Shown here in pieces: positions 7,738 through 49,999 of a DNA stretch of 64,000 bases. The translations under genes were made by a program, and so were the position numbers. The notes under the pieces are model-generated. The model was not told the origin of the DNA. It saw only the letters and a list, made by a program, of their open reading frames with translations, and searched no databases. Numbering within the stretch: the stretch's first letter is position 1; each line of letters opens with the position of its first letter. Origin of the DNA: Candidatus Manganitrophaceae bacterium (GTDB taxonomy: Bacteria; Nitrospirota; Nitrospiria; SBBL01; Manganitrophaceae); assembly GCA_016200325.1 (NCBI GenBank), contig JACQEZ010000014.1:124001-188000 (forward strand). The letters are read 5' to 3'.

Positions 7738-7794
7738 TTTAAATTTTAGAGAAGGACTCATATCGATATTCAACCGTTAACAGGAGGAGATCGC

Positions 7795-8526: not shown

Positions 8527-8586
8527 TGAGCGAATCTAAAATGTGGGGAGAGAAGAGAGGATGCTAAACCCTTTGGAGGTTTCCCC

Positions 8587-26776: not shown

Positions 26777-27979
26777 TTAGGCCGTCCGACCCGGTCCCCC
26801 CATGAGCTTTGCGACAAGGCCGGCCCGTGTGCTGGACTGGACTTTTTTTAGGATATTTTTGATGTGGTCTTTTACTGTATAGACCCCGATGCCGAGTTCC
26901 GACGCGATCTCTTTGTTGGTCAGCCCCTGACCGATTAATCTCGAGATCGACTCCTCGCGCTCGGTCAGCCCGAAATCGGGCCGGCCCGATCCGGTCGACC
27001 CGCTTTTCTCTTCGACCGGCTCGATGAGAATCATCACCGTCATCTGCTTCCGGCCCCCTCCTTCCAAGGCGATTCCCCGCAGGGAGAAGCGTTTTCCCCG
27101 AAGCGAGAGGAGATCGCAGATCGGCAGGGTGCCGATCTGCGCCGGCTTCTCCGAGACGGCACGAAAGACCCGCCGCTTCAACTGCTGAAGCTGCCTCAGC
27201 ACCCGTCCCTCTTCCAACCGGGGGACATTCCCTGTTCCACCCCGGAGGCCGTTCAAGAGTGCGGCCGCCGATTCATTCATAAAGAGAAACTCCCCTTCTT
27301 CTCCGAGCACGAGAACGCCGGGCGCGTCGTGTCGGCCGATTCCGGCCATCCAGGCCGGGATCTCCGGCTCGGGTGACGAGGACCGGGCATATCGGAAGAG
27401 TGCGCCGAGCAGGGTGGAAGCCCTTTCCAGAAAGTGGGACTCGCGCGGCGAGAAATCGGACCGTCCTTTCGATCTCCAGAGGGTCAACATACCGACCTCT
27501 CCCCCCGCCTCGTCGATGCAAAGGCTTGCCAAAGGATAAATCAGGCCGAGCGGCACGATCTTCTCCAGATAAAACGAACCGTTGAGCCAATACTCCGTTT
27601 CGTTTAGATCGGATCCGCGCAGAGCGATCGATCCCTGCTCATGAAAAGGCTGAAGCAGCGGCGCGGACGGGGTCAGAAGCGGGGCGAGAAGCCCCTCGGG
27701 AAGCTGATGAAGATAGCCGTCGACCGTTACGTGCGTGTCGGGCGCGCATCGAACCACCCAGGCGGCGTCGAAGGGGATCGCTTCCAGAACGACCCGAAGG
27801 GCGTTCCGCGCCGCCGAGGGAAAGGGATCTTGGGGATCGGCCGCCAGCGCATGAAGCGCTTTCAGCGCCGTCTCCTGCGGTCCGCTCAAGGGTGCGAGCG
27901 CACAGCTCCCTTTGGTTTTATTTGCGCGGTCCCACGGCCCGACCGGTATTCTCCATCCCTGATACGCCTCGCGCGCCAT
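26777..27979 (-). CDS. GAF-like sensor with LuxR-type HTH (transcription regulator)
   Basis: The 400-residue product ends in a clear LuxR/FixJ helix-turn-helix (about residues 335-395: LTEREESISRLIGQGLTNKEIASELGIGVYTVKDHIKNILKKV). The first 200 residues look like a GAF domain (FDAAWVVRCAPDTHVTVDGYLH, ASLCIDEAGGEVGMLTLWRS), followed by a PAS-like segment (GVLVLGEEGEFLFMNESAAALL). It has no receiver domain, so it is probably a one-component regulator that senses a small ligand or redox signal. ATG 27979 is chosen because AGGAGG lies nine bases upstream, whereas it abuts ATG 27988. Its targets are unknown; no neighbour is divergently coupled. Confidence 0.85.
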   Translation of the reverse strand: MAREAYQGWRIPVGPWDRANKTKGSCALAPLSGPQETALKALHALAADPQDPFPSAARNALRVVLEAIPFDAAWVVRCAPDTHVTVDGYLHQLPEGLLAPLLTPSAPLLQPFHEQGSIALRGSDLNETEYWLNGSFYLEKIVPLGLIYPLASLCIDEAGGEVGMLTLWRSKGRSDFSPRESHFLERASTLLGALFRYARSSSPEPEIPAWMAGIGRHDAPGVLVLGEEGEFLFMNESAAALLNGLRGGTGNVPRLEEGRVLRQLQQLKRRVFRAVSEKPAQIGTLPICDLLSLRGKRFSLRGIALEGGGRKQMTVMILIEPVEEKSGSTGSGRPDFGLTEREESISRLIGQGLTNKEIASELGIGVYTVKDHIKNILKKVQSSTRAGLVAKLMGGPGRTA

Positions 27980-28461
27980 CCCTACCATCCTCCTCTACTG
28001 AAACACCATCGCGCCTTGCTCGGACATCTATGCCGCTCTGGCTTTAAATGTTTTTATGCTTGTTTATTCTCGCGTTGCCGGTGCGCCATCCCCACCGTCT
28101 GATTCTTTATAACAAAGCAAAGGGTGTGCCGATGTCTATTTGGGATGAGCGATCCCTCTTTATACGATCAGACGTAATTTTCCTTACCAAAGAGGAGATG
28201 GCGCGCCGCCCCTTTTCCGAATCTCGGAAAGTGCGATTCCGATTTCCGGAAGGGATGTTCTGATAAGTTGGCGTCAAGAAGCACTGCAAGAAACACGGGA
28301 GGAAGAGGAACTTCAACCGAGGAAGAACGCCGAGGCATTTGCACATTGCATCTTTTCTCATTTCCCATTAAACTACCCGCCGGAGAGACATTTTTGAAAA
28401 AGCGTCTTCGTCGCATCCGACCCCGTTTTATCGGAGACCCCGCGCCGTCGGGGAGTCTGTT
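27980..28461. other. Intergenic region between the LuxR-type regulator and the FHA activator, 482 bases
   Basis: The two regulator genes are divergent across this region. I find no gene with a credible ribosome-binding site or family resemblance, and no clear sigma-54 or consensus sigma-70 promoter. Confidence 0.5.
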
Positions 28462-30078
28462 ATGCCGAGTCTTCGAATCTATCTGAAAGATCAATTTCGC
28501 TGGAACTTCACCCTCCTGGAGAAGGAGGTTCGGATCGGCCGCGGTCAGGAGAACCATATCGTCCTTCCGCAGCCGGAGATCTCGCGCAACCATGCCCTCC
28601 TGCGCCGCGATGGAAAGCGGTTCATCCTGGAGGACAGGAGCGGCCGGGGGATCGATCTGAACCATCAGACCGTTTCGGAGGCCCCTTTGCGGCAGGGTGA
28701 CGTCCTCCAGATCGGCGCCTATCGCCTCGTCTTCGAGCTGAAGGAGACCGAAGAGCCGTTTACGGAGACGATCACCCGGGAGCCGACCCTCGACCTTCCG
28801 GGGGGCGGGGTGCCGAAGCAAAAGGCGATCATCCGCTCCCGCATCGCGGTTGCGGCCGGACCCGACCAGGGGAAGGTGCTTCCTTTGAAAGAGGGGGTCA
28901 CCCGGATCGGGCGGGGAGGGAGAAATGACCTGGTGCTCTCGGACCCGGCGGTCTCGAGTGTCCATCTGGAGATGGAAGTAAGCCCCGCGGCGATCTTGGT
29001 CCGCGACCTCGGAAGCACCAACGGAACGCGGATCAACGGTCAGCGGATCCAGAGCTCGACGGCGGAGATCGGCGCGGAAATTCAGATCGGCCAGACCAAG
29101 CTCAAACTCCAGCTCGAAGAGCCGACCGAGCCGCTGGCTCCTCCCGCCTTGGGCCGCCTCATCGGCCAGAGCGTGAAGATGCAGGAGGTCTTCCGGATGA
29201 TCGAGCGGGGAGCGCGCGGAGAGGTCGCGGTGTTGGTCCAAGCCGAGACCGGATGCGGCAAAGAGCTGGTGGCGCAGGAGGTGCATCGATTGAGCCCCCG
29301 GGCGGAGGGGCCGTTCATCACCCTCGACTGCAGCGCCATCCCGAAGGAGCTGATCGAATCGGAGCTCTTCGGACACGAGAAGGGGGCCTTTACGACCGCC
29401 GTCTCCCAACGGAAGGGGGCGTTCGAGCTGGCCCGCGGCGGCACGGTCTTCCTCGATGAGATCGGAGAGCTCCCGATCGAGATGCAGCCGAAGCTGCTCC
29501 GGGTATTGGAGGAGCGGACCTTCAAGCGGGTCGGCGGCAATGAGATGCTCCGCTCCGACTTCCGGATTATCGCCGCGACCAACCGATGGCTCGATCAAGA
29601 GGTGCTGGCGGGACGCTTCCGCCAAGATCTCTATTTTCGACTCTATGTCTTGCCGATTTTTCTCCCGCCGCTTCGAGAGCGCAAGGAGGACATTCCCCTT
29701 TTGGTCGATCATTTCCTCAAGGGGAAGTCGATTCAGGTTTTGCCCGAGGCGATGGAGAAGCTGACGGCGCATGGCTGGCCCGGCAACGTTCGGGAATTGA
29801 GAAATGTCATCGAGCGGGCCGTGGTGATGATGGAGGGGAGCACCCTCCGGCCGGAAGACCTGCTCTTCCTCCGGCCGCCCGATCGGGAGGGCCCGCCGAT
29901 GTCGTGGGAAGAACAGAAAGGGGCGCTCCCCACCGGATCTCTGGAGGAGATTGAAAAGCAGGTGATCCAACGCGCGCTGAAGTCCCATCAAGGGGATAAG
30001 AAAGCGGTGGCCCAGAGCTTGGGAATCGCCCTCTCGACGCTGTATGAAAAACTGAAACGCTATCATCTGGCCGACTGA
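28462..30078 (+). CDS. Sigma-54-type AAA+ activator with two FHA domains and altered GAFTGA loop
   Basis: The 538-residue protein begins with two forkhead-associated domains (about 1-95 and 130-220). Both keep the phosphothreonine-binding residues: GRGQ...SRNH in the first, GRGG...SSVH and STNGT in the second. An AAA+ domain follows (about 235-470) with Walker A ETGCGKE, Walker B TVFLDEIGE and sensor/arginine region DLYFRLYVLPIFLPPLRER, then a Fis-type HTH (about 485-535: KKAVAQSLGIALSTLYEKLKR). The sigma-54 contact loop reads GAFTTA (308-313) rather than GAFTGA, so sigma-54 remodelling may be impaired or modified. FHA domains imply control by a Ser/Thr kinase; one is encoded at 41.9-43.2 kb. 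The gene is convergent with the last gene of the envelope cluster. Confidence 0.9.
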   Translation: MPSLRIYLKDQFRWNFTLLEKEVRIGRGQENHIVLPQPEISRNHALLRRDGKRFILEDRSGRGIDLNHQTVSEAPLRQGDVLQIGAYRLVFELKETEEPFTETITREPTLDLPGGGVPKQKAIIRSRIAVAAGPDQGKVLPLKEGVTRIGRGGRNDLVLSDPAVSSVHLEMEVSPAAILVRDLGSTNGTRINGQRIQSSTAEIGAEIQIGQTKLKLQLEEPTEPLAPPALGRLIGQSVKMQEVFRMIERGARGEVAVLVQAETGCGKELVAQEVHRLSPRAEGPFITLDCSAIPKELIESELFGHEKGAFTTAVSQRKGAFELARGGTVFLDEIGELPIEMQPKLLRVLEERTFKRVGGNEMLRSDFRIIAATNRWLDQEVLAGRFRQDLYFRLYVLPIFLPPLRERKEDIPLLVDHFLKGKSIQVLPEAMEKLTAHGWPGNVRELRNVIERAVVMMEGSTLRPEDLLFLRPPDREGPPMSWEEQKGALPTGSLEEIEKQVIQRALKSHQGDKKAVAQSLGIALSTLYEKLKRYHLAD

Positions 30079-30197: not shown

Positions 30198-31742
30198 TTA
30201 AAACCGAGCCGTCACGATCCCGCCGTAAATGCCTCGATGGTATTGATACAGCGGGATGTTCGAATTGTTCCGCTCGTAATAATATTGAAGCGCCAGATCG
30301 ATATGCCGCGTCAGCTCCCGAGAAAGGGTGGCGATGGCGAGCCCGTCGTTGTCCTTCCGCCTCACCCCCGGAGGCTGCTCGTTCGGATGGGCGAAGCGGC
30401 GCAAAATATATTCGACATCGACCGACAGCGTCAGGCGATGCCACGGCGGCAGAAGGATGCCGGCGACCAACCGGTTGCCGTTGAAGGTCCAATCATCTTT
30501 CGCCGGTGTCTCGCCCCCCTTCTCCCGTTCGAAGGAGTAGCCGGCATGCACGTTTCCCCTCACCCCGAAGAGGAAGTAGTGGGTGAATCCCGCCCGGTTC
30601 GTATGGACGTCGCGGTCGGAGTTGGTCGGAAAGAGCGGCTGAATATTGGAAAAGTCCCTGGCGCCGTATTGATAGATCAATTCGGTGAGGTTCCGCGGGG
30701 TCTCTTCGATAATCAGACGCGGGCCGACCCCCTGCCGCAGCAGATAGCGGTCCCCTCCGAGTGTCGCGAACTGCAGCTCGTATTGTAAAAGCAACTCCGC
30801 ACGGCTGAATCGCCTTCCGCCATTGAAGACGACATTGTGGCTCTGAATGTCGAAATCCCTTAGCGCGCTGTCCCGGTGCAGATTCTGATAAAAGCTATAC
30901 TCGGCCTGACCGGTCCAATTGGGAGTGTTCAACCACCGGTAGCGTCCCCGGAGGAAGAGGAGTCCGACCAGATCGCTTTTGTCGGTGATCGCCTGCGCCG
31001 AGGGGATGGTCCGGTTCGGTTCTAAGATGACATTCGTATCATACTGTACGCCCGCGGAGAAAAGAAGATCCCATCGCTTTCTCCGCTGGGCCTGCTCGTT
31101 GATCCGCTCCAGGTATTCGCCGGCCGACTGGGCCGTCTCTCCCTCAGGGAGGAGCATCACGACATTCTGAAACGATTTTCGCGCAGAATCCAGATCTCCC
31201 GCCTCGTAATAGGCCGAGCCGGCATGGTAATTTGCCTGAAGCGCCAGCTCGGGGTCAAGCGCGGCGGCCTTCTCCATTTTTGCCGCCGCTTCTTTTGACT
31301 TTCCCTCCCGACGCAAAATCAATCCTTGATAATAGTAAACGCGCGCCCGGTCGGGATCGGCCCGTTGGACGACGTCGAGCTCTTTTAGGGCCGCCTCGTC
31401 TTGATCGAGCTGATAATAGAGAATCCCCAGGTCAAGGTGGGCGGGAAGAAAGGTGGCATCGCGCGAGAGCGCCTCTTTAAACGCTTTTTCGGCCTCCTCC
31501 CACTGTCCGGCCCGAGCCTGCGCCACGCCGATGTAATAGAACGCCTCGACCCCCTGCGGATTCTCCGCCAACGCCTCCCGAAACTGCTGCATCGCGCCGC
31601 CGAGGTCATTCTGATTGAGCCGAACGATCCCGGCCGAAAGATGGCCGTGATACCCGAGCGGCGGCTCCTCCGCCGACAGACAGGGACGCGCTCCGACCGA
31701 TAGAACGAAGAAGAATAGCATGAGAAGGAACGGCTTTTTCAA
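30198..31742 (-). CDS. TPR protein with predicted C-terminal outer-membrane beta-barrel
   Basis: The 514-residue product has a signal peptide (cut near CLSA), about five or six TPR repeats in residues 30-215 (GHLSAGIVRLNQNDLGGAMQQF, AFYYIGVAQARAGQWEEAEKAF and similar), and from about 220 a series of alternating amphipathic strands that ends GIYGGIVTARF. A terminal Phe after a beta strand is the usual outer-membrane-protein signal. The layout resembles surface lipoprotein assembly modifier-type proteins, with periplasmic TPRs on a barrel. It is the last gene in the minus-strand cluster and could help assemble or export the secreted or lipid-anchored proteins. The barrel is inferred from composition. 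Confidence 0.75.
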   Translation of the reverse strand: MKKPFLLMLFFFVLSVGARPCLSAEEPPLGYHGHLSAGIVRLNQNDLGGAMQQFREALAENPQGVEAFYYIGVAQARAGQWEEAEKAFKEALSRDATFLPAHLDLGILYYQLDQDEAALKELDVVQRADPDRARVYYYQGLILRREGKSKEAAAKMEKAAALDPELALQANYHAGSAYYEAGDLDSARKSFQNVVMLLPEGETAQSAGEYLERINEQAQRRKRWDLLFSAGVQYDTNVILEPNRTIPSAQAITDKSDLVGLLFLRGRYRWLNTPNWTGQAEYSFYQNLHRDSALRDFDIQSHNVVFNGGRRFSRAELLLQYELQFATLGGDRYLLRQGVGPRLIIEETPRNLTELIYQYGARDFSNIQPLFPTNSDRDVHTNRAGFTHYFLFGVRGNVHAGYSFEREKGGETPAKDDWTFNGNRLVAGILLPPWHRLTLSVDVEYILRRFAHPNEQPPGVRRKDNDGLAIATLSRELTRHIDLALQYYYERNNSNIPLYQYHRGIYGGIVTARF

Positions 31743-35999: not shown

Positions 36000-36028
36000 A
36001 TGAATCGACGTCCTCTCGCGGTGCACGG

Positions 36029-37948: not shown

Positions 37949-37979
37949 TGATATGGATTCCTGCCCCAAAAGGTTGCCC

Positions 37980-38060: not shown

Positions 38061-39311
38061 CTAAAACTGCACGTGGACCTGTACCGGGACCGTATTCGAA
38101 GGGACCGTCGGCGGCGTCAGCACGCCGAGGCCGGGAGAGAGCGCCTGATGAGCGGGCGGCGTCAACATCCCGAGCCCGGGAGCCATCACCCGGTTTCCGG
38201 ACAACGGCTCGGGAACCTGGGGGGCATAGAGCGTTCCGGCCGCGAGGAGCCGTCCGCCGTCGCCGATCGACTCGGCCCCCGAGATCATCGCCTGCAGATC
38301 GAGCGGGAAGAGGGGGGTGTCGAGGAGCGCCTTTCGGGCGAGCTCGAACTCGGGATCTTCCTCGACCGCCAAGAAGAAAGAGCGCGAGGCTTCGCGATAT
38401 TTTACTTGATCGAGGTATTCGAGCCCTTGCGAGTAGAGACGGAACGCCTTGAAGTTTCGGGTGTGGATCGCTCCGACCGCCGCACGCGTCTGGCTGTCGA
38501 GGCTCTCCGGACAGCTCCCGATCCCGCAGAGGATTTTAAAGACCATCTCTTTTTCCATCTGATAGAAGCTCGGCAGCGCGCCGTGGACCTCGGGGTTGGT
38601 GATCAGCTTTCCGTTTTCGGTCTGGGTGACCGAGGCATCGAGCCGGAGCTTTTCTTGTTCCAGATCAAGAAAGCTGCCGGTGGTGATCTTTCCGGCGCCG
38701 AGCAGTTTTCCGACCCGGGGGGCGCTCTGGGTGTCGACCAATCCCGATTGCGACAGCTTCAGCTCATCCAACAGCGCCTTGAGCTGAATCCGCTCGACCA
38801 CCTTGAGGGTTTTGACCTTGGAGAGGTCGGTGATGATCATCTCCGCCAGCCCTTTCGAGAGGGGGGTGTAGGTCTGCTGTCCCAAATTCTGGAAGGGGGA
38901 GACGGCAATCGCCTTGGAGTCGATCTTCCCGGTGAGCTGTTTTTCCTGCTGAAGAATCTCCCGGGCGGTCCGCTTCGCCTCTTCCTGAAGGAGGAGGGTG
39001 AGGTATTTCGACACCTCTCGGCTCCCCTCATTTCCCGGATTGGCCTGGACATACTGCTGCCATGCAATGATCGCCCGCTTCTGATCCCCCATTCTCAGAT
39101 AGCTCAGTCCCAGGTAGAGCGACTCGCGCGGATCGGGCGTTTCCTTCCCCTCGACCGTCTGAATGATCTCTTCATAGCGCTCTTCCTGGTAGAGGTGTTT
39201 CACGTCGGGTTCTGATCGTGTGTTTTCCGCCGACCTTCCCGGCGTCGGGGAGAGGAGGAGGCTGACGAGGGCGGTTATGAAAAGGGCAGTCGAGTAAAGT
39301 TGTTTTTTCAT
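38061..39311 (-). CDS. TPR and CsgG/FlgO-type secreted protein
   Basis: The 416-residue product has a signal peptide (cut near GRSA), a short TPR region (about 35-105: YQEERYEEIIQTVEGK, SLYLGLSYLRMGDQKRAIIAW) and a CsgG/FlgO-like domain (about 130-250: IAVSPFQNLGQQTYTPLSKGLAEMIITDLSKVKTLKVVERIQLKALLDELKL, then VGKLLGAGKITTGSF). The rest is predicted helical and ends in a Pro-rich tail with LGMLTPP and LGVLTPP repeats. CsgG-type domains form the curli secretion pore; FlgO relatives bind the outer membrane. The lack of a lipobox makes a canonical CsgG pore unlikely. Its start overlaps the stop of the upstream gene by four bases (ATGA). Confidence 0.8.
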   Translation of the reverse strand: MKKQLYSTALFITALVSLLLSPTPGRSAENTRSEPDVKHLYQEERYEEIIQTVEGKETPDPRESLYLGLSYLRMGDQKRAIIAWQQYVQANPGNEGSREVSKYLTLLLQEEAKRTAREILQQEKQLTGKIDSKAIAVSPFQNLGQQTYTPLSKGLAEMIITDLSKVKTLKVVERIQLKALLDELKLSQSGLVDTQSAPRVGKLLGAGKITTGSFLDLEQEKLRLDASVTQTENGKLITNPEVHGALPSFYQMEKEMVFKILCGIGSCPESLDSQTRAAVGAIHTRNFKAFRLYSQGLEYLDQVKYREASRSFFLAVEEDPEFELARKALLDTPLFPLDLQAMISGAESIGDGGRLLAAGTLYAPQVPEPLSGNRVMAPGLGMLTPPAHQALSPGLGVLTPPTVPSNTVPVQVHVQF

Positions 39312-40012
39312 TGGGCTTCCTTTAAGAGGAGGTTCTCCATCCGCTCCCGCGCTTCTATTTGATTGGGATCGATGGCGAGGGCCTTTTGGTACAGCTCCAA
39401 GGCCTTCTGGGTGTGGTTCGATTGTTCCAGGGCGATTCCCTGAAGAAAATAGTCGTGTCCCGTCTTCGGCGTCCCCTTCGGAAGGCCGACCTTGGCGATC
39501 AGCTGATCGGCCATCTGTCTGGAAAAGTCCTTTTCAATCAGCGCCCGCTCGGCGGCGCGCCCTTCCAGCGCGCTCCCTTCGGCGATTCCCTTTTCAACTT
39601 CGACGATCCGTCCGTCGATCCGAAGCCCTCCTCCCAAAGCGGTATATCCTCCCATGATGAGATACTGCGCTCCGAGGAGCTTTCCAAGGCGGAGCTGCCC
39701 TTCCCGGTCGGCGAGGTCGAGCGACGCGAGCGAGAGCTCCTGGAGAATCTTCTGAAGCGACTCTCGATCGATCAGCCGGAGATCCTGCCGGCCGGCGAGC
39801 TGCTCGGAGATCCGGTCGGCGAGGGTGCGGCCCAATCCCTGGGTCGCGACGGTTTGAGCGATCCCATGGTCTTCGAATTCAAGCACCGCCACGGTCAACA
39901 CCCGCGGCTCGGGCGCCGGGGAGAGGGGCGCTTTTGGCGAAGCGACCGGCGCTGCGGCGCAGGCGGCGAGAAGGGGAAGGAGTATCAAGAGAGCGCTAAA
40001 AGGCCGCATCAT
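39308..40012 (-). CDS. CsgG/FlgO-type lipoprotein with TPR tail
   Basis: This 234-residue lipoprotein (LPLLAACAAAP signal) has a compact CsgG/FlgO-like domain (about 38-165: VLTVAVLEFEDHGIAQTVATQGLGRTLADRISEQLAG, LRLIDRESLQKILQELSLASLDLADREGQLRLGKLLGAQYLIMGGY) and one or two TPR repeats at the end (DYFLQGIALEQSNHTQKALELYQKALAIDPN). The pattern hydrophobic strand, RESL-LEL, then LGKLLGAxYLxxG is shared with the other three CsgG-type proteins of the cluster. It overlaps the gene before it by 17 bases and the gene after it by four, which indicates translational coupling. The lipid anchor would place it at the inner face of the outer membrane. Confidence 0.82.
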   Translation of the reverse strand: MMRPFSALLILLPLLAACAAAPVASPKAPLSPAPEPRVLTVAVLEFEDHGIAQTVATQGLGRTLADRISEQLAGRQDLRLIDRESLQKILQELSLASLDLADREGQLRLGKLLGAQYLIMGGYTALGGGLRIDGRIVEVEKGIAEGSALEGRAAERALIEKDFSRQMADQLIAKVGLPKGTPKTGHDYFLQGIALEQSNHTQKALELYQKALAIDPNQIEARERMENLLLKEAQ

Positions 40013-41930
40013 TCCCCCCGATTTCTTCCAATACCTTCTGGTCTTTCTGGACAGCCGTTTTGTGCTCGGTCAGCTTGCCGTAGGACATTCCTTCTTCCAC
40101 CTCGACGATCTCGAGAAGGCCGACCCTGGTTTTTTTGAAGCCGATCGTCTTTCCGTCGACAACGATCGCTTCCCCCTCGTCGATGATCTTCAGCTTCGTT
40201 CCCGGCTTGATTCCGTGACGGGTGCCGAGGTTGACGATCACCTGCTCTCCCGCTTCCACCGAGGCGATCTTCCCCTTGAGCGGATATTGCTCTTTGAGTT
40301 TTTTGCCGATCGCCTGCGCCGTCTGGTCGGCCAGCGTCATCAGGTTCTTCTGAGTGTTCATCTCGTCGGCGTAGGTGATCTTGATCGCCGAGGTCTCCGG
40401 GTCGATCAGCCGGAGGCTCAATCGGACCCCCTCCGGAATTTGAACGAGGCTCCCGGTGACGATCAGCCGGGCGGAGAGGAGCTTGCCGAGTTTCAACGCC
40501 GTTTCCGGATCGGCCAGTTCGGACGAGCCGAGTTTCAGTTCGGCCAGCAGCTTGTCGAGCATCTCCCGCTCCACCACCGCCACCCGGCCGCCGGCGGAGA
40601 GCCGCTGGGTCATCTCGGCCTGGAGCACCTCCGACATCCCCTCGCGCAACAACCCGCCCCCCATCAGCTTTAAACCGAGGAAGGCGACCGTCATCGGCTT
40701 GGACGACCAGGGGTCGGCCGCCGGCAGGTCGGCGACCTTGCCGGTTTTGAACCGCTCGGTGAGATCGGCGACGAGGGTGTCGATCCGTTTCTGCCGCTCT
40801 AGATCCTCCTTGAAGGCGAGGTGCTGCTCCATCCGCTTCATCAGGTGCTTGGCGACCTCGTCTTCCGGATCGGCGGAGAGCGCCTCTTGGTAGAGGGCGA
40901 GCGCCTTCTGCGGCTGTCCCTGCCGCTCATAGAGGACGCCGCGGTTGGAGAGAATCTCGGAAGAGTAGGGGTTGTGGATCACCGCCTCCTGATACATCTT
41001 TTCGGCCAGGGGATACTGTCCCTGTTCGGAGTAGATCCGGCCGGCATTGTTGTAGGCGGTCGCCCGTTGCCAATCGGTGGAGAGCTTCCCCTCAGCGGCC
41101 CGGGTAAACTCCGCCAGCGCCTCCGGCTGCTTCCCTTGGCCGGCCAAGACATTCCCCTTCACCAGATGAACCAGACCGTTGTTCGGCTCCTCCTTCTCCA
41201 CCTCCTCCGCCACGGCGAGCGCCTTGTCGGTCTCCCCCTTCTGGAGATGAACTTCGGCGAGCCCCTCTTTCCCGAGGATCGCTTCCGGAGATTTCAATTG
41301 AGCCAGCTTGGAGAACTCGCTTTCGGCCCGGTCGAGCTTTCCCTCTTTGAGGAAGACGTGTCCCAGTCCGGCGGCGGCCTGGGTGTCTTTCGGATTCGAT
41401 TTCAGCGCCGTCTCGAAGAGTCCCTTCGCCAACGTCGTCTTCTTCAACTGCAGCCCCCGCTGTGCCACCGTGGTGATAAAGCGGGTCGAAGAAGGGCCGC
41501 CCCCTTCCAGGGTGTCGGTGATCCGGTTGCCCGGCCCGAGGATATAGGTCGTCGGAAGGATGACCTTCACCTGATAGGCGCTGAAGATCTTTCCGTCGTC
41601 TCTCACCACCGGGAAGGGGAGGGGATGCTCTTTCAGATAGGGATCGAGCAGCTTCGCGCCATCTTGCGTCACGGCGAGGATGGTCATCCCGTCTTTTTCA
41701 TACTGCTCAGAGAGGCCCTTGAGGTAATCGAGCCCCTCGCGCGCCGGCTTGGAGTCGAGCTTGAAGAAGTAGACCAAGACCATCGGCTTTTTCTTCACCG
41801 CGTCGAGCGCGGCGAAGGTCGGGGCGACCTCCCCTTTTTTAAGCGCCGCCTCGGCGGTCTCCTGCATTCCAAAGAGGGAAAGAAGAAGCGCGGCAACCCC
41901 CCATAAGACGATCAGGTTGATTTTCTTCAT
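39996..41930 (-). CDS. Redoxin-like, TPR, CsgG/FlgO and FlgT-like fusion protein
   Basis: The 644-residue secreted protein joins four modules. Residues about 30-165 look like an AhpC/TlpA-type thioredoxin fold (EVAPTFAALDAVKKKPMVLVYFF, TTYILGPGNRITDTLEG), but the active-site CxxC is replaced by KLDSKPA, with no cysteine in the domain. Residues about 170-370 hold five or six TPRs, including LSNRGVLYERQGQPQKALALYQEAL. Residues about 400-550 form a CsgG/FlgO-like domain (VAFLGLKLMGGGLLREGMSEVLQAEMTQRL, LGKLLSARLIVTGSL). The C-terminus has a FlgT-like piece (VNLGTRHGIKPGTKLKI). The signal peptide is cut near AEA. Its ATG overlaps the kinase stop by four bases, so kinase and fusion protein are coupled. 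Confidence 0.85.
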   Translation of the reverse strand: MKKINLIVLWGVAALLLSLFGMQETAEAALKKGEVAPTFAALDAVKKKPMVLVYFFKLDSKPAREGLDYLKGLSEQYEKDGMTILAVTQDGAKLLDPYLKEHPLPFPVVRDDGKIFSAYQVKVILPTTYILGPGNRITDTLEGGGPSSTRFITTVAQRGLQLKKTTLAKGLFETALKSNPKDTQAAAGLGHVFLKEGKLDRAESEFSKLAQLKSPEAILGKEGLAEVHLQKGETDKALAVAEEVEKEEPNNGLVHLVKGNVLAGQGKQPEALAEFTRAAEGKLSTDWQRATAYNNAGRIYSEQGQYPLAEKMYQEAVIHNPYSSEILSNRGVLYERQGQPQKALALYQEALSADPEDEVAKHLMKRMEQHLAFKEDLERQKRIDTLVADLTERFKTGKVADLPAADPWSSKPMTVAFLGLKLMGGGLLREGMSEVLQAEMTQRLSAGGRVAVVEREMLDKLLAELKLGSSELADPETALKLGKLLSARLIVTGSLVQIPEGVRLSLRLIDPETSAIKITYADEMNTQKNLMTLADQTAQAIGKKLKEQYPLKGKIASVEAGEQVIVNLGTRHGIKPGTKLKIIDEGEAIVVDGKTIGFKKTRVGLLEIVEVEEGMSYGKLTEHKTAVQKDQKVLEEIGGNDAAF

Positions 41931-43192
41931 CGCGCTCCCTCCTCTTCCGTCAGTTTTAAATCGACCGGGACCCGCTCGCCGGCGGCGACGGTGAGGGTCG
42001 CCTCCAACGGGTGATACCCCTTTTTCTTGGCGGTCAGTTCATGCGAGCCGGCGGGAAGGTCGAGCGCCAGCGGCGCGACCCCTTTCGGCTCGCCGTCGAT
42101 CACAATCTCTGCGCCGGCCGGGGAGCTGGTTAATTCGACCTTCCCCGGTTGCCCCTGTTGCGCCGTCGTGACCGCCGTCGGCTCGGGAGCGGACATGGTT
42201 TTCGATTCGCGCAGTGCGTTGAGGTTTCCCCCCAGCAACCAGAGGCCGAGAAGCGTGGCCATCCCGGCGAGGGTCATCGGAACCCACACCGGACGTCGGC
42301 CCGCCGGCGTCGGCCGGATTCCCTCTTGGCTGGCGGAGAGGGCCATGGTCCGGCTCTCGGCGGCTGCAGCCGGGCGGGGATGGAGCGCCGCTTCGAGCGC
42401 GTCCGCCATCTCCGTGCCGGATGAAAACCGCTTTCCAGGCTCTTTTTCCAACGCTTTCATCACAGCATGGCTCAAGAGGCTTGGAATCTTGGGCGAGACG
42501 AATTCCGGCGCCATCGGGGTCTTCGTGAGGACCTGGTGCATGATCGCCGGGATCGTCTCGCCCGGAAACGGTTTCTGAAAGAGGAGGAGCTCATAGAGGA
42601 GGGCGCCGACCGAGAAAAGGTCGGATCGGCCGTCGATCTGCTCCCCTCGGCATTGCTCCGGAGACATATACTGAGGGGTTCCAAGGAGATGGTCGGTCTG
42701 GGTCTGGCCGACCCCGTCGAGCCGGGCGATCCCGAAATCGGTGACCTTGACCGTCTTTAAATCGTCGGTCAGCAAGATATTTCCCGGTTTGATATCCCGA
42801 TGGATCACCCCTTTTTGATGCGCAAAATCGAGGGCGCGGCAGACCTGAATCGCCACGTGAACGACCTGATCGATTGAGAAGGACGCTCCCTTTTTCAGAA
42901 GCTGGGCGAGGGAGGTTCCCTCGACATATTCCATGACGATGTAAGCGGTTCCGGTCGCCGGATCTTCTCCCGCATCGAAGATGGTGACGATGTTCGGGTG
43001 GATCAGCCGTCCGAGCGCCAGGATCTCCTTCTGAAATCGCTTCCGGTTCGCCTCCGAGGCTTCAAACAGCTCGGGCCGGAGGCATTTCAGGGCGACCTGC
43101 CGATCGATCTTGGCATCGCTTCCGAGATAGACGATCCCCATCGCCCCCCGGCCGATCTCCGCTAAAATTTCATATCGTCCCAACGATTTCAT
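41927..43192 (-). CDS. Membrane Ser/Thr protein kinase with PEGA domain
   Basis: The 421-residue protein has a complete Hanks-type kinase domain (about 1-275): glycine loop GRGAMGIVYLG, ATP lysine K36, catalytic HRDIKPGN with D133, metal-binding DFG with D152, and SPEQ. The RD motif suggests activation-loop autophosphorylation; Thr residues occur in GQTQTDHLLGTPQY. A linker leads to one transmembrane helix (about 303-322) and a periplasmic PEGA domain (about 350-418: VELTSSPAGAEIVIDGEPKGVAP). PEGA domains bind surface-layer or wall material, so the kinase may sense the envelope. ATG 43192 has AAGGGA upstream; the frame extends further but less plausibly. A likely effector is the two-FHA regulator at 28.5 kb. 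Confidence 0.93.
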   Translation of the reverse strand: MKSLGRYEILAEIGRGAMGIVYLGSDAKIDRQVALKCLRPELFEASEANRKRFQKEILALGRLIHPNIVTIFDAGEDPATGTAYIVMEYVEGTSLAQLLKKGASFSIDQVVHVAIQVCRALDFAHQKGVIHRDIKPGNILLTDDLKTVKVTDFGIARLDGVGQTQTDHLLGTPQYMSPEQCRGEQIDGRSDLFSVGALLYELLLFQKPFPGETIPAIMHQVLTKTPMAPEFVSPKIPSLLSHAVMKALEKEPGKRFSSGTEMADALEAALHPRPAAAAESRTMALSASQEGIRPTPAGRRPVWVPMTLAGMATLLGLWLLGGNLNALRESKTMSAPEPTAVTTAQQGQPGKVELTSSPAGAEIVIDGEPKGVAPLALDLPAGSHELTAKKKGYHPLEATLTVAAGERVPVDLKLTEEEGAR

Positions 43193-43365
43193 CACGCGTT
43201 CCCTTAAAATACTTCGGATTTGAATCTCGGAAGATCCATTATTCTTACTCGGGTAAAAGAGGGAGTTGGAATCCGTATTTGTACCCCATCCGTCCCCTAA
43301 ATCGCAACTAAAACCGACATCATTTTTAATATCCACTTTAAGAGTTCTGCGCTCCTTTTTACAAT

Positions 43366-44877
43366 CTATTTTTTAGCCTCAATCGCGGCGAGCCATTGGC
43401 CGACCTGCACCGCCTCCGGCGAGGTCGGTTTTAGCTCGATATATCGGCGGTAGTGAAATGCCGCCTTCTGCGGATTGCGCAGGATGCTGTCGTAAAAGGT
43501 CCCGATGTTATAGTGTGCGTCGGCATACTTCGGATTGATTTCCAGCGCCTTTGCATAGGCCTGTTCGGCCTTCTTGGTCTCTTTCATCCTCCGGTAGACT
43601 TCGCCGAGGTTGTTGTAGGCTTTCGCCGACGGCGGCCAGGTTCGGGTGCTCTGAATGAGGAGGTCGGACGCTTCGGGATACCGCTTTGCCTCCGCCAAGA
43701 GGGTTCCCATCTGGAAGAAGGTCTCGCCGAGAAAGCGCCGAACCTCCCGGCTCGGAACGGCAAAGGCGATCCCGCGCGCCTCAGGGAGCATCCCGAGGAC
43801 CACTCCGACGACCTCTCCCTGCCGGTTCAGCAGCGGCCCGCCGCTGTTGCCTGGATTGATCGCGACATCGGTTTGCAGGACCGGCCGGTCGCCCATCGTC
43901 CGCTCCGGCGCGCTGATGATCCCCTGCGAGGCGGAGTGATTCAGGCCGAACGGGCAGCCGACCGCCATCACCGGCTCGCCCGTCTTGGCGGTGTTGGCCG
44001 AGACGAATGAAAGCGGCTCCGCTCCCTGATACGAAATTTGAAGGAGCGCGAGGTCGAGTGCCGCGCTGACCGACAAAACCGATGCGGCGTAGACCGATCC
44101 GTCCTGGAACTGCACTTCGAGACGGTTCGCCTGGTTCGCCTGATGCCCGCTCGCCAGAATATAGCCGGGGCCGACGACGAAGCCGCTCCCCTCGTTCTTT
44201 CCCTGGGGGGTGTCGCCATGGACGCAGACGACCTGGGGGAAGGAGACGGCCGGCGCCTCCGGGGAGGCGTTCCCGGGCGTCGGAATGGGCGGTGCAACCG
44301 GAAGGACGGGGGCCGCCGGCGGGACGGCCGGAACCATCATCTCCCCGGTCAAATGGATGTCTCCCTGTCCCTCCTCTTCCGAGGTTCCCTTTCCCTGGGC
44401 CAGCTTGTCGCCGGGAACCTCGGTCAGCTCGGCGAGACGGGTCTGTGCCTTTCCGGCGAGCGGATGGGCCGGGGCGAGGCTCAAAAAGCGGCGGTAATGG
44501 AAGATCGCTTGAACGTTGTTTGCCTTTTCATAGGAGTAGAGGTTCGCGAGGTTATAGTGGGCTTTGAAGTGATTCGGATCGATCCGGACGACTTCTCGGT
44601 AGGCGGCGATCGCCTCATCGGTTTTATTCTGCTTCTGATAAATCGCCCCTTTCCGGAAAAGCGCCTCCGTGTTTTGCGGATCGAGCTTCAATGCCGCGTC
44701 GAGGTGTTTGATCGCCTCGTCATACTGGTTTTGGTCATAGGCGATCAGCCCCTCTTCCAGATGGGTCGGTCCGACGGAATCGGGCCGGATCTGGCGGCTG
44801 CACGCCGGCAGGAGCGCCAGGAGGATGAATGGGAAGAGCAACCGGCTGAGAATGGTTTTTTTCGAGAATGGCTTCAT
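43366..44877 (-). CDS. Lipoprotein with trypsin-like protease between TPR blocks
   Basis: The 503-residue protein has a lipobox (LPAC26), three TPRs (about 38-135), a Pro-rich linker (about 180-212), an HtrA-like S1C protease domain (about 215-385) and two or three more TPRs (about 390-500). The triad is visible: H244 in SGHQAN, D274 in ALDLALLQI and S344 in NPGNSGGPLL. There is no PDZ domain. HtrA-like proteases act on misfolded or exported envelope proteins; the TPRs could present substrates. It lies directly after the CsgG-type gene (11 bases) in the secreted-protein cluster, which suggests a quality-control or processing role for the Asn-rich proteins. That role is inference. Confidence 0.9.
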   Translation of the reverse strand: MKPFSKKTILSRLLFPFILLALLPACSRQIRPDSVGPTHLEEGLIAYDQNQYDEAIKHLDAALKLDPQNTEALFRKGAIYQKQNKTDEAIAAYREVVRIDPNHFKAHYNLANLYSYEKANNVQAIFHYRRFLSLAPAHPLAGKAQTRLAELTEVPGDKLAQGKGTSEEEGQGDIHLTGEMMVPAVPPAAPVLPVAPPIPTPGNASPEAPAVSFPQVVCVHGDTPQGKNEGSGFVVGPGYILASGHQANQANRLEVQFQDGSVYAASVLSVSAALDLALLQISYQGAEPLSFVSANTAKTGEPVMAVGCPFGLNHSASQGIISAPERTMGDRPVLQTDVAINPGNSGGPLLNRQGEVVGVVLGMLPEARGIAFAVPSREVRRFLGETFFQMGTLLAEAKRYPEASDLLIQSTRTWPPSAKAYNNLGEVYRRMKETKKAEQAYAKALEINPKYADAHYNIGTFYDSILRNPQKAAFHYRRYIELKPTSPEAVQVGQWLAAIEAKK

Positions 44878-44888
44878 TGTCGTTTACC

Positions 44889-45947
44889 TTAGTCGAGAAT
44901 GGGATAACCTGATTTTGCGATTGTCAATCCGCTGATATCGCCGTAAGGGGCCGCCTCCTCGCCATTGATCCCGGTCCGGCCTTTCTGCGAGAAGCGGACA
45001 ATGTCCCCTTTCTTCGGCATTGCGCTTCCGACGATGCGGGCCTTTGAGAACTTCTCCGAGACGAAGACCACGGTCAGCTCTCCGATCGGACTTTCGATGA
45101 CCCCGACGACCTGGTTGGTTTCCGGATCCGTCAGCACCTTCTTGACCGAGAAAACCGAGAGCCGATCTCCCACATGGACCTGGGTGTTGGCCCCTGCATT
45201 GACATAGACGAGATTGTCTTCCATATGGATCACCTTGCCCAATCCGCTGGAGTAGGTCCGGAGCCGCTCCTGAACCGCGCCGAGGACGAAACCGATGGCG
45301 TCCTGGATCGTCTGCCGGGTTGCTTTGCCGAGCGGCGTTTTATGGAAGGCATCTCCGCCGAAGGTGAGCGTCGGCAGGCTCATATCGATAGCGGCCGCCT
45401 TCTCCCAGGCGCGCCCCTCCGAGCGATGGGAGTGAATAATCTCTCCGGTAGAGGTATCGATGATCCTCAGATCGATTCCAACATGCGCGGCGGAGAACTC
45501 CACCGTCGCCTTCGGAAGCAGCCAGGTCAGCAGTCCCACCTTTCCGCCGGCCCCCACCGCCTTCTGCTCAAACTCGGTGACCTCGCCGACGATCAGATAG
45601 TCGACCCCGAGCAGCTGTCCAACCTGCGCCGCCGTTTCTTTCGTCACGAGCTTGGAGGCGGAGAGCTCCTGCTCCCGCATGATCTGGGAGAGGATGGCCC
45701 GCTCGACCACCACGACCTTTCCGGTGTTGATCAGCTCGGTGACCACCTGCGCGGCGAGCCCGCCGCCGATATCCCAGCCACCATACACTTGCGCAAACCG
45801 GTCGGTGGCGCCGAACCGGGCGACGGCGACGCGGACCTTGGCGGAAGCGCCCGGGGCACCCGGTTCGGCACCCCACGTTTGCAGCTGCAGGCAGAGGGAG
45901 AGCATCATTCCCAGAAGGCCCATCTTAAGAATTTTTTCCCTTCTCAC
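44889..45947 (-). CDS. CsgG-family protein with FlgT-like C-terminal domain
   Basis: The 352-residue product starts at GTG 45947, with GGGAGG eight bases upstream, and has a signal peptide cut near TWGA. Residues about 40-235 form the CsgG domain: VRVAVARFG, GGGLAAQVVTELINTGKVVVVERAILSQIMREQELSAS, VGQLLGVDYLIVGEVTEFE, DLRIIDTSTGEIIHSHRSEG. The C-terminal 110 residues resemble FlgT (VNAGANTQVHVGDRLSVFSV, then KARIVGSAMPKKGD). CsgG is the nonameric outer-membrane pore of curli export; unlike CsgG there is no lipidated cysteine at the cleavage site. It follows three small secreted-protein genes, as expected for a dedicated exporter, but pore formation needs proof. Confidence 0.87.
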   Translation of the reverse strand: MRREKILKMGLLGMMLSLCLQLQTWGAEPGAPGASAKVRVAVARFGATDRFAQVYGGWDIGGGLAAQVVTELINTGKVVVVERAILSQIMREQELSASKLVTKETAAQVGQLLGVDYLIVGEVTEFEQKAVGAGGKVGLLTWLLPKATVEFSAAHVGIDLRIIDTSTGEIIHSHRSEGRAWEKAAAIDMSLPTLTFGGDAFHKTPLGKATRQTIQDAIGFVLGAVQERLRTYSSGLGKVIHMEDNLVYVNAGANTQVHVGDRLSVFSVKKVLTDPETNQVVGVIESPIGELTVVFVSEKFSKARIVGSAMPKKGDIVRFSQKGRTGINGEEAAPYGDISGLTIAKSGYPILD

Positions 45948-45971
45948 AACCTTTCCTCCCACCTTTCGCGC

Positions 45972-46445
45972 TTAGCAACGTTTGTTGTTGGTATTTGTAA
46001 TATTGACGTTGACCTGGCTGTTGATCGCCCCTTTGTTTTTGTCGACATTGGTCTCGTTGGTCGAGTCGATAATTACATCTCCCATCCGGAGGCTCCCGTC
46101 GCCGGTTACCTCATCGAGTCGGGCGCGCGCTCGGTCGGCCGCGGTGCACTGGGCCTCCGGCGAATCTGCCGGGAAGATGTTGGCCCGGACGCGGACCGAT
46201 TTCTCGTCATTCTCCTGGCGTCTTCGGATATCCTTGACGTTGGCTTTCACCTCGTCGTCTTCTTTTTCTTTTTTCTTTTCCTCAGGCGTCTTCTCTCGCT
46301 GCTTGTCCTTCTCTTCTTGGGTCTCCTTCTGGGCGGCCTCTTCGCTCTGAATGGGCGGGGCTCCGTAGATTTCCCCTGTCGACCATCCCAATTGAAAGAG
46401 GACCACGATCAGCCTGATTGGCGTCCCTATTTTGTTAATCTTCAT
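45972..46445 (-). CDS. Small secreted protein, charged middle and Asn-rich tail
   Basis: The 157-residue product has an N-terminal hydrophobic signal (IRLIVVLFQLGWSTGEIYG) and then a highly charged Glu/Lys coiled-coil-like region (about 35-75). After a segment with one Cys (EAQCTAADRARARLDEVTGDG) it ends in an Asn-rich beta-like tail, GDVIIDSTNETNVDKNKG and INSQVNVNITNTNNKRC, with a terminal Cys. The tail resembles the ends of the two proteins encoded upstream. It lies 25 bases before the CsgG-family gene. GGAAGG precedes the ATG. No known family; a fibre subunit, nucleator or chaperone role is possible but unproven. Confidence 0.7.
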   Translation of the reverse strand: MKINKIGTPIRLIVVLFQLGWSTGEIYGAPPIQSEEAAQKETQEEKDKQREKTPEEKKKEKEDDEVKANVKDIRRRQENDEKSVRVRANIFPADSPEAQCTAADRARARLDEVTGDGSLRMGDVIIDSTNETNVDKNKGAINSQVNVNITNTNNKRC

Positions 46446-46485: not shown

Positions 46486-46851
46486 TTATCTTTTCTGAGT
46501 TGTGGTGTTTGTGTTGGTCGAGTTATGGTTGCTTTGATCAACGCCCATGATCACCGCATTAGACGTCGTATTGACCTCTCCTGTATTGCCGCCGCCGATG
46601 CTGACGTTGTTTTCGGAATGCATCTGGACGCCATTCAGAACGACACCATTGGTGATGTTGCCGGTGGCGAGGTTCCCTTTGCCGGCTGCTTGGTTCCCTC
46701 CGATTTTATTTTCATTCCCGTTGTTCTCTTTTTCGGCGGGCCGGGAATGTTCCGGCCCGCAGTCCATGAGGCAGACGGCCTTGCTTGAAATTGCGCTTCC
46801 GAGGACCGCTGCGATCCCGAGGAGCATGGCGATCGATAATTTTGTCGGCAT
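46486..46851 (-). CDS. Asn-rich secreted protein, paralogue of the 46960-47340 product
   Basis: The 121-residue product has a signal peptide cut near SKA and begins VCLMDCG, giving two close cysteines. The mature part is rich in Asn, Gly, Thr and Ser: GNQAAGKGNLATGNITNGVVLN and a C-terminal motif GEVNTTSNAVIMGVDQSN. These align with GQSAKGSGNQAMHDVKDAVVKN and GQINANTMAVTGGLDQSH in the neighbouring gene product. The Gln/Asn/Gly spacing recalls the beta-strand repeats of curlins, but the curlin consensus is not matched. AAGGAG precedes the ATG. It is the second gene of the sigma-54-controlled run. Confidence 0.75.
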   Translation of the reverse strand: MPTKLSIAMLLGIAAVLGSAISSKAVCLMDCGPEHSRPAEKENNGNENKIGGNQAAGKGNLATGNITNGVVLNGVQMHSENNVSIGGGNTGEVNTTSNAVIMGVDQSNHNSTNTNTTTQKR

Positions 46852-46900: not shown

Positions 46901-46933
46901 GAGAAGGGGTGGAGTTTCGATCCACCCCTTCTC
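46901..46933 (-). terminator. Intercistronic hairpin, possible partial terminator or mRNA stabiliser
   Basis: A 13-bp perfect stem, GAGAAGGGGTGGA (46901-46913) with TCCACCCCTTCTC (46921-46933), encloses a seven-base loop. It lies 27 bases after the stop of the first secreted-protein gene and before the second. No U-tract follows on the minus strand, so it probably stabilises the upstream message or only attenuates, favouring high expression of the first gene. Confidence 0.75.
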
Positions 46934-46959
46934 CCGCACAGTATATTGATTGTTGCGAG

Positions 46960-47340
46960 TTACTTTCCGTAGTTGTTGGTGCTCTTGTTGACGTTGAGGT
47001 TGTCGTGGCTCTGATCGAGTCCGCCGGTCACCGCCATGGTATTCGCGTTGATCTGGCCGCGAATGTCGCCGTTGGCGTCGTGCATGCCGCCGGTCGCGGT
47101 GGCGGAGTCGTTGTTCTTCACCACGGCGTCTTTCACATCATGCATCGCCTGATTCCCAGATCCTTTGGCCGATTGCCCGGAGACGTTGTCGCTGTTCTCA
47201 CGGATGTCGCGGCCGGCAGCCTTTTGGTCGACCGAGGTGCTGTCATCGCAACCGAGCAAGCAGAACGCTTCACTCTTCATTGCGGTTCCAAATACCAGGG
47301 CCAATCCCATCGCGGTTGCAATCAAAGTTGTCTTTTTCAT
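46960..47340 (-). CDS. Asn-rich secreted protein, first gene of the sigma-54-controlled cluster
   Basis: The 126-residue product has a signal peptide (LIATAMGLALVFGTAMKSEA, cut after SEA) and begins FCLLGCDDS, matching the VCLMDCG start of its paralogue. The mature part is polar and rich in Asn, Asp, Gly, Ser and Ala, with no long hydrophobic stretch, and ends LDQSHDNLNVNKSTNNYGK. It is encoded directly downstream of a sigma-54 promoter (47416-47431), and a stable hairpin follows its stop, so it is probably the most strongly expressed protein of the cluster. GGAG lies nine bases before the ATG. No known family is recognised; a secreted structural subunit is the working idea. Confidence 0.78.
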   Translation of the reverse strand: MKKTTLIATAMGLALVFGTAMKSEAFCLLGCDDSTSVDQKAAGRDIRENSDNVSGQSAKGSGNQAMHDVKDAVVKNNDSATATGGMHDANGDIRGQINANTMAVTGGLDQSHDNLNVNKSTNNYGK

Positions 47341-47415: not shown

Positions 47416-47431
47416 AGCAAAGGGCGTGCCA
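47416..47431 (-). promoter_or_regulatory. Sigma-54 (RpoN) promoter
   Basis: On the minus strand the sequence TGGCACG-CCCT-TTGCT matches the -24/-12 consensus TGGCACG-N4-TTGCW at every position. The GG and GC doublets have the required spacing. Transcription should start near 47405, giving a leader of about 65 bases before the ATG at 47340. Confidence 0.93.
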
Positions 47432-47527
47432 TGAGAAAAAATAAATGCGGAAGAGGAAAAGAGGGCCTAAAAAGGGGAGGAATCGGGTTGTGAGCATCTG
47501 CGATGAGGGGTGAAGGAAAGATGTTTT

Positions 47528-47563
47528 TTCGGAATCCGGAAAATAAAATTTCGGATTCCGGAA
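47528..47563. promoter_or_regulatory. Two enhancer-like sites for a sigma-54 activator
   Basis: TTCGGAATCCGGAA (47528-47541) and TTCGGATTCCGGAA (47550-47563) differ at one base and share the dyad core CGGA-N-TCCG. They are 22 bp apart, two helical turns, and centred about 129 and 151 bp upstream of the predicted start. This is the usual geometry of upstream activating sequences; the activator is probably encoded by the adjacent gene (47951-49999). Confidence 0.75.
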
Positions 47564-47950
47564 GGAAAAAAACGAAAAACAAAAGAAATAAGAGGCTATT
47601 TCGGGTTGTCGTTCAACAGGAGGCCCGCGCGACAGACCCTTTCGGGCTGAGGGCGCCGCTGCTTTCCCGATCGTTGAGTTAATCGATTGATCCGGGCTCC
47701 AGTGGAGCGAGATAGATACGATGGGTGTATCCGTATAGATAAGATTGCGCCGTCCCTTTCTCGGCCTGTCCCTTCTTGTTAAGGGGAGGGGAGTGCGGAG
47801 ACCGATCCATACCGCTCTCTTTATCGATCAATGCAGACCCACCGGCTTGCTCGCACGGGTGACAACAGGCCGAGCGTCGGGAAGAACGTTCCTTTGGGAC
47901 GGGGAGTCGCGAAAAAAGATCGACCGAATGAAGGGGGACCGATTTACTCT

Positions 47951-49999
47951 TTAGCTTGAAATTCGGAAAGTCCGGATCAAGCGGGCGAGGTAGGTCCGTT
48001 GAAGCCCGAGGAGGGCGGCCGCTTTGGTCTGATTCCCGCCGGTTTTCTGAAGCGCCTCTTCGATCACGGAGCGCTTATACTGCTCCAGCGCTTCATGGAA
48101 CGGCTGCGGCACCCCGACCCCTTTCTGGGGGGCCTCTCCTTCCGGCAGGATGATGTCGTCGGGATTAATCACCTGATCTCGATCGAGCACCACCGCCCGT
48201 TCGATGACATTCTTCAGCTGCCGGATGTTCCCCGGCCAGGCATAGCGGGTCAGAAAGGTGACCGTTTCCCGCGTCATCGCCGGCTTCGGCTTTTTACATT
48301 TCTTGCTGAAGAATTCGAGGAAGTGATCGACCAGCAAGGGAAGGTCATCGAGGCGCTCGCGCAGCGGTGGGATGACGAGCGAGATCACATGGAGGCGATA
48401 GTAGAGATCGCTTCTGAACTTTTCGGCATGCACCTGCCGTTGAAGGTCGCGGTTGGTCGCGGAGATGACCCGGACATCGATCGGGATCGTATCCCGGCCG
48501 CCGACCCGCTGAATCTCGCGCTCTTCCAGAACCCGGAGGAGCTTTGCCTGAAGGGTGGGAGAGATCTCTCCTACCTCATCCAAGAAAAGGGTCCCGCCGC
48601 TCGCCGTCTCGAAGATTCCTTTCTTCAGCGAGAGGGCGCCGGTAAAGGCCCCTTTCTCATGGCCGAAGAGCTCCGCCTCCAGGAGGCTCTCGGAGAGCGC
48701 CGCGCAATTGAGGGCGTAGAAGCGCTGGTCGCGCCGAAGGCTGCATTGGTGGATCGCCTTGGCGAGCGCCTCCTTTCCGGTGCCGGTCTCTCCCAAAACA
48801 AGGATGGTCGAGTCGACCGGCGCGATCAGCTCGACCTGCTCGAACAGCTTCAGCATCTTCGGGCTCTTTCCGATGATGCCGTGGAAATCGTACTCTCTTC
48901 GGATCTCCCCCTTGAGCTCTTCGTTCGCCTGTGCCAGCGCCTTGTTCTCCATCGTATAATGCAGGAGCTGACGATGGGTCTCTCTGAGCTCCCGGACGTG
49001 ATTAAAGAGGAGGGGGATGATCTCGGAGCAGTCGGTGATCGTCTCGCTGGCATTTTTCCGGCCTGATCTCGATTTCCAGGTGAACCGGTAGCGGGAGTAG
49101 GGGGCGTTGAAGTAGGCCCCCTCGCGCAGGGTGAAGGTCTGTTTGCCCGCCTGCAGCATCCCGCCATGGACGATTTGATACGCGCTGTGCTCTTTTCTCC
49201 ATCGTTCCGGATCGTCTTCAATCTGCGGCAGCAGGAGTCGGACCTCTCCCCCTCTCGGAGGAAGAATCAGCCCTTCGATCTGCCGCGGGTCGTCGGCGAG
49301 CGCAGGGAGCAATTCGGTTTTGAGGAAAACCTGACGGGCGGCGGCGACCTCTTTCTGGGTGGTGGTATCGACAATGGAAAGGCGCGCGTCCTGCCGCTCG
49401 ATCCGGTATTTGCTGAACTCGCGACAGAGGGTTTCCAGCTTTAACTGAGAGAGCTCTTCGATACATTGGGCTTCGGCGATGTCGTCGAAAAGGGTCGTCA
49501 TCCCTTCATAGTTTCCACGGATAAATCCATAGTTGCCGACGATCGGCTCCACATAAGGGGCGAATTGAGAGAGGAGCGTCGCCCCCGCGCCGACGCCGGA
49601 GGGGGGAAGACATTGCAGTTTAAAATAGTTGGCGAAGCCGGTTGCCCAGAGGTTGGAACAGTTGAGCGCCTGTTCCATATTATTCTGTTGAAGCTTGGCG
49701 ATGATCTCCAGAAGCGAGGGGCCGGGACCCGATTGGTAATAGCTTTTGGCGGCGAGATAGGTGATCTCTTTGGTGCCGGTTGCGTTTTCAGCGGTGATGA
49801 TCAGGTTTTTGAGGACGTGATGCGGAACCCAATTGGTGTGTTTGAGGAGAAAAGCGCGGGGGTCGGCGATCCGGTTGAGCTGATTGTCTCCCGCTAAGAT
49901 CTCCTGGTAGTCGAGACCGTCCGCTTTGCCGATCCGCTCCAGATGGAGGATCAACATCCGCGTTAAAAGGCAGGTGGTCCAGGGACTTTGCTGTTCCAT
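47951..49999 (-). CDS. Sigma-54-dependent transcriptional activator with novel sensory N-terminus
   Basis: The 682-residue protein has an AAA+ central domain (about 385-620) with Walker A GETGTGKE, intact GAFTGA loop in [12 protein letters not shown], Walker [12 protein letters not shown], and arginine region [21 protein letters not shown] Fis-type HTH ends the protein ([22 protein letters not shown]). The first 350 residues are not a receiver domain; they contain [47 protein letters not shown] and [17 protein letters not shown]-like pieces that I cannot place confidently. A short coiled coil links them to AAA+. The gene is next to the only clear sigma-54 promoter seen here, so it likely activates the secreted-protein cluster in response to a ligand. 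Confidence 0.93.

Follow-up and report, generated by a model that had tools for sequence, protein, structure and literature searches.

Two questions are raised by the minus-strand sequence at 47416-47431: whether it is a working sigma-54 promoter of the gene for a small Asn-rich secreted protein, and which activator switches it on. The sequence lies in a 64 000-nucleotide stretch of DNA (the window, on which all coordinates are given) from the 4.21-Mb genome of a Candidatus Manganitrophaceae bacterium, a relative of manganese-oxidising bacteria. The reading preferred here, with a probability of about 0.75, is a working sigma-54 promoter of an Asn-rich/CsgG/kinase operon, activated through a tandem UAS and likeliest by an FHA-domain protein encoded elsewhere in the window. 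The features concerned are collected in Table 1.

Table 1. Features of the window that bear on the sigma-54 promoter, its candidate activators and the downstream genes
Feature	Position	Strand	Remarks
-24/-12 element of the sigma-54 promoter	47416..47431	minus	TGGCACGCCCTTTGCT; exact match, conservation
Tandem UAS	47525..47564	minus	Half-sites TTCCGGAATCCGAAA (47563-47549) and TTCCGGATTCCGAAA (47541-47527), starts 22 bp apart
Sigma-54 activator named in the first-pass annotation (adjacent activator)	47951..49999	minus	Genus-restricted
First Asn-rich secreted protein	46960..47340	minus	126 aa, with signal peptide and C-x3-C; 13% Asn beyond the signal peptide
Second Asn-rich secreted protein	46486..46851	minus	121 aa
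157-aa partner protein (p157)	45972..46445	minus	Conserved with the Asn-rich genes
CsgG-family protein, possible outer-membrane pore	44889..45962	minus	PF03783, 1e-26
TPR/trypsin-like protein	43366..44877	minus	
Ser/Thr kinase	41927..43336	minus	Intact HRDIKPGN and DFG motifs, hydrophobic stretch, PEGA domain
Three further CsgG-like/TPR proteins	39996-41930, 39308-40012, 38061-39311	minus	
Probable operon tail: two large surface-type proteins and a TPR protein	36029-37969, 31833-36026, 30198-31742	minus	
FHA-FHA-AAA+-HTH_8 sigma-54 activator (FHA activator)	28462..30078	plus	Best candidate UAS-binding regulator; domains, orthologues
Second UAS copy, beside the FHA activator gene	28213..28251	minus	UAS profile
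Second sigma-54 site	28116..28131	minus	CGGCACACCCTTTGCT; belongs to the second UAS
LuxR-type (GerE) regulator gene, downstream of the second promoter	26777..27988	minus	

The first-pass annotation had described a near-perfect TGGCACG-N4-TTGCT on the minus strand with correct spacing. The element was read as TGGCACGCCCTTTGCT from 47431 to 47416, exactly so, with zero mismatches to TGGCACG-N4-TTGCW and the correct spacing. As also described, it stands in noncoding DNA just downstream of a sigma-54 activator gene, in a 610-bp gap between the stop of the activator ORF (47951) and the ATG of the first Asn-rich gene. The position given for this ATG (47340) stood, but its distance from the site is 75 nt instead of 76. 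AAAGGAG is found upstream of the ATG, and the predicted +1 falls at about 47405, 12 nt past the C of the -12 GC. An rpoN homologue, the presence of which had been proposed as a check, was found in the genome (E 1.4e-57).

The same annotation had held a site of such quality to be rare by chance in one particular 600-base gap and had proposed a genome-wide ranking. Allowing up to two mismatches to the consensus, seven matches were counted in the window against 6.3 expected; weak consensus matches thus carry no meaning. By pattern search, the perfect match is the sole one in the window and the sole one in the genome. With up to one mismatch, 19 matches were found genome-wide against 22 for a reversed-pattern control (no excess), and simple counting (~23 bits, both strands) gives a chance expectation of about one exact match per genome. 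The consensus match alone is therefore only suggestive. Judged from the sequence, the evidential weight rests on the position of the site before an operon and on its conservation at 15 of 15 promoters.

The Asn-rich gene was sought by protein search over 58 genomes, the window's own included. It was found in 12, all belonging to the window's genus or to a second family (f5) of the same order, and a broader but sparser sampling of the phylum (396 genomes) likewise yielded it only in the genus and f5. The two families carrying it are Manganitrophus-type Nitrospirota. Sites were scored with a sigma-54 weight matrix (maximum 18.9) based on the published consensus; its weights are approximate, and the conclusions are independent of their exact values because the sites are near-identical by eye. 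A near-maximal -24/-12 site precedes the Asn-rich ATG in all 12 genomes. These hold 15 promoters in total, including three sites with three Asn-rich gene copies in G013 and two with two copies in G017, and the site is kept at every one, 75-108 nt upstream of the ATG and with scores of 16.3-18.5. No further site of at least 15.5 bits was found on either strand of the loci (~4.5-20 kb each). Within the genus, the intergenic DNA around the site aligns poorly and the site itself is retained. In G009 (L090, G009:C60, ~7700-10600), the Asn-rich genes, p157, csgG and the sigma-54 site have been jointly lost, and a UAS-like remnant and the remainder of the cluster are retained; this joint loss suggests that the promoter works as a unit with the lost genes. 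The reading as a sigma-54 promoter of the first Asn-rich gene is thus supported by rpoN and by conservation in 12 genomes, and promoter function at 47416-47431 can be taken as very nearly certain. Sigma-54 promoters depend on an ATP-driven activator, and the strict switching that had been ascribed to the cluster would follow from this promoter class. In G013 (L048, G013:C42, 4121-7239), each of the three Asn-rich copies has its own UAS and sigma-54 site, and aquaporin-like (MIP) and arsenate-reductase-like genes lie between two of the copies.

The genes downstream of the promoter are co-directional, with gaps of -17 to 108 nt, and the order of the first nine is kept in the genus and in f5, where contigs allow. 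In more distant Nitrospirota, a kinase/TPR/CsgG-like core is kept, but the Asn-rich genes and a comparable sigma-54 site are both missing. At one such locus (L136, G170:C8), where the Asn-rich genes are absent, a PP2C-like phosphatase gene lies by the trypsin-like/kinase/TPR/CsgG-like core. A strong hairpin rich in G+C stands after most Asn-rich genes (46905-46935 in the window and the equivalent gaps in relatives); its sequence differs in each genome, and it usually lacks a T run. Such a hairpin would suit a more abundant first product. Curlin repeats were absent from the 26 Asn-rich proteins scanned, and a scan of the cluster proteins revealed neither CsgE nor CsgF. The term 'curli-type' is used only in the sense that small secreted proteins are encoded next to a member of the CsgG family. 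The AlphaFold model of an Asn-rich protein had a mean pLDDT of 41.5 and gave no usable fold; low-confidence models are common for disordered chains. Comparison of the CsgG-type and Asn-rich proteins with solved structures returned nothing useful.

The first-pass annotation had missed the tandem UAS, a putative activator-binding site farther upstream. It consists of approximately TTCCGGAATCCGAAA twice, with starts 20-23 bp apart, and it is present at all 15 promoters, 65-132 bp upstream of the -24 element. The first half-site starts 130-132 bp upstream of -24 in the genus and 87-108 bp upstream in f5. For a cross-family test, a half-site matrix was trained on one family and run on the other, with 2000 shuffles. 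The matrix trained on f5 recovered the UAS in six of six genus members, and 0/2000 shuffles reached the score. When the matrix trained on the genus was run on the nine f5 promoters, the count was 0/2000 at eight and 1/2000 at the ninth. A profile built from both families placed the Asn-rich promoter top in the window's genome (E 1.9e-8), a rank obtained partly by construction since this promoter belonged to the training set; it marked one other notable place in the window, at 28213-28251. With an f5-only profile, the two half-sites came just 5th and 9th genome-wide. The UAS therefore appears convincing in context and poor as a blind genome-wide predictor.

The place at 28213-28251 is a second UAS. 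A sigma-54 site, CGGCACACCCTTTGCT (28131-28116), lies 81 nt downstream of it, ahead of the LuxR-type ORF (26777-27988), and the FHA activator gene is divergent, on the other side of this UAS. The same arrangement of UAS, sigma-54 site and divergent FHA activator gene was found in G002, G003, G004 and G005; in each of the five genus members that show it, the FHA activator gene is thus accompanied by a second UAS with its sigma-54 site. Beside the f5 FHA activators, a second UAS was not found.

The FHA activator gene (28462-30078), about 18 kb from the Asn-rich promoter, encodes a sigma-54 AAA+ domain (4.2e-66), an HTH_8 domain (1.3e-13) and two FHA domains. Of the 12 genomes with the Asn-rich gene, 11 have a full-length orthologue (61-84% identity); the protein was not found in the twelfth, G001, a 72% complete genome. 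An orthologue also occurs in G006 and G009, both without the Asn-rich gene, and G007, G008, G010 and G014 gave only partial matches to the AAA+ domain. The recognition helix LGIALSTLYEK is shared by both families. A census was made of the 26 activators of the window's genome against G011 and G013, where the Asn-rich gene and UAS are present, and G014, where they are absent. The FHA activator was present in G011 and G013 and absent from G014, which is the pattern of the Asn-rich gene; the activator adjacent to the promoter was absent from all three. One other activator (L140) had the pattern of the FHA activator, but with a 64% non-reciprocal match in G014. Orthologue distribution, helix and census together favour the FHA activator over the adjacent one, and on these sequence comparisons it is probably the regulator of the Asn-rich promoter. 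A point against it is its sigma-54 loop, which reads GAFTTA in the genus, not GAFTGA; it is GSFTGA or GAFTSA in f5 and GAFTNA in G006. At that position of GAFTGA, a survey records D as functional and lists N and S with the putative substitutions, but not T (PMC3162934); NorR with D or N at the same position still activates (PMC2941729).

The gene of the neighbouring activator (47951-49999), pointed out in the first-pass annotation, does adjoin the promoter in the genus, but the reading of this protein as the switch is not supported. It might drive a real promoter there, alone or with the FHA activator, if the regulator had been exchanged or added and the DNA site kept. The gene is directly upstream and is kept beside the promoter within the genus; it is also present in the public relatives Candidatus Manganitrophus sp. 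GAC4 and one Candidatus Manganitrophaceae MAG. Its loop is the canonical GAFTGA, whereas that of the FHA activator in the genus is GAFTTA, and a 15-bp palindrome, AGATACACTGTATCT, is a possible operator for it; the palindrome stands in G001, G002, G004 and G005, with a close variant in G003, at ~200-215 bp from the -24 element on its upstream side (L041-L045). However, the palindrome is spaced differently in the window, which has only a wider-spaced GATAC...GTATC, and the HTH of the adjacent activator is unlike the recognition helix of the FHA activator. In f5, moreover, the protein has no reciprocal best hit and no orthologue, and its N-terminal half is without match, yet f5 shares the site and the UAS. 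The missing f5 orthologue rules it out as the conserved regulator, and its acting in the genus is considered unlikely; an activator gene next door need not be the acting one. The AlphaFold model of its N-terminal half had a mean pLDDT of 33.9 and gave no usable fold. In G004 (L044), matches to the adjacent activator and to some genes of the cluster are split over two frames, through either frameshifts or errors of assembly.

The half-sites in the window also form a 9-bp inverted repeat, and the stretch ~47530-47560 could accordingly be read as the terminator of the adjacent activator gene and not as a UAS. This is very improbable, and the terminator was rejected: no T run follows the repeat on that strand, and the conserved feature is a tandem direct repeat at fixed spacing, kept even in f5 where the upstream activator gene is missing. 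A copy of the UAS, in addition, stands beside the FHA activator gene. Least credible of all is a chance consensus match with the Asn-rich gene transcribed from another promoter, which the genome-wide counts given above would allow but which is effectively excluded by conservation at orthologous promoters of two families, always before the Asn-rich gene and with the UAS co-conserved; a sigma-70 promoter was rejected as well, the sole sigma-70-like match in the 610-bp gap being on the opposite strand.

For the preferred reading, a sigma-54 promoter under the FHA activator, the following mechanism is proposed. The activator would bind the tandem UAS at 47525-47564 and, by looping, contact RpoN-RNA polymerase at 47416-47431; its ATP hydrolysis would then open the DNA, with transcription from about 47405. 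Its input would be a phosphothreonine signal, for which the operon's own transmembrane Ser/Thr kinase is a possible source, and it would also act at the second UAS and promoter before the LuxR-type gene. The Asn-rich proteins would be exported through the CsgG-type pore. We infer, as a plausible circuit, that the signal would pass from the kinase to the FHA activator and from there to sigma-54. A more speculative extension, which is doubtful, combines feedback with a new cargo: the kinase would sense the envelope or secreted Asn-rich material and, through phosphothreonine and the double-FHA activator, control the operon, and the Asn-rich proteins would represent a class of CsgG-exported cargo that is new and restricted to these Nitrospirota, and that perhaps belongs to the matrix where manganese oxide nodules form.

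The promoter resembles those of the NtrC/NorR class with tandem UAS in its consensus and spacing, a UAS within ~130 bp, an HTH_8 activator and rpoN; it differs in that start and binding are here predicted from sequence and the half-site is unmatched to a described activator. In Myxococcus xanthus, sigma-54 activators with an FHA domain were reportedly described by Jelsbak in 2005 (cited in PMC4320627). They are alike in combining FHA, sigma-54 AAA+ and HTH domains in genomes with Ser/Thr kinases, whereas the present protein has two FHA domains, belongs to a different phylum and would have a secretion operon as target, its phospho-dependence being putative. In the Caulobacter HfaA/HfaB holdfast anchor and in curli CsgA/CsgG, a CsgG-family protein is likewise encoded beside small secreted proteins (PMC6707917). 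Here, in contrast, the Asn-rich proteins are without curlin repeats, and the operon adds a kinase, a protease-like protein and extra CsgG-like/TPR proteins. HfaA/HfaB may be the nearest layout that can be named, the HfaB match being weak. Sigma-54 has been presented as a controller of the bacterial exterior, in a survey covering polysaccharide, flagella, lipoprotein and wall genes (PMC3162934); a surface/secretion operon under sigma-54 would fit this theme, with a CsgG-type cargo outside that survey. In the library searched, no paper brings together Nitrospirota, sigma54 and enhancer binding, and curli, CsgG and sigma all go unmentioned in the genome paper on the Manganitrophaceae.

A motif seen by eye has in this way become a testable regulon whose promoter, UAS and activator are named, in relatives of the cultured manganese-oxidising chemolithoautotrophs. 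If the link from kinase through FHA activator to sigma-54 is true, these bacteria would offer a concrete example of sigma-54 output being steered by Ser/Thr phosphorylation, in a phylum without such studies.
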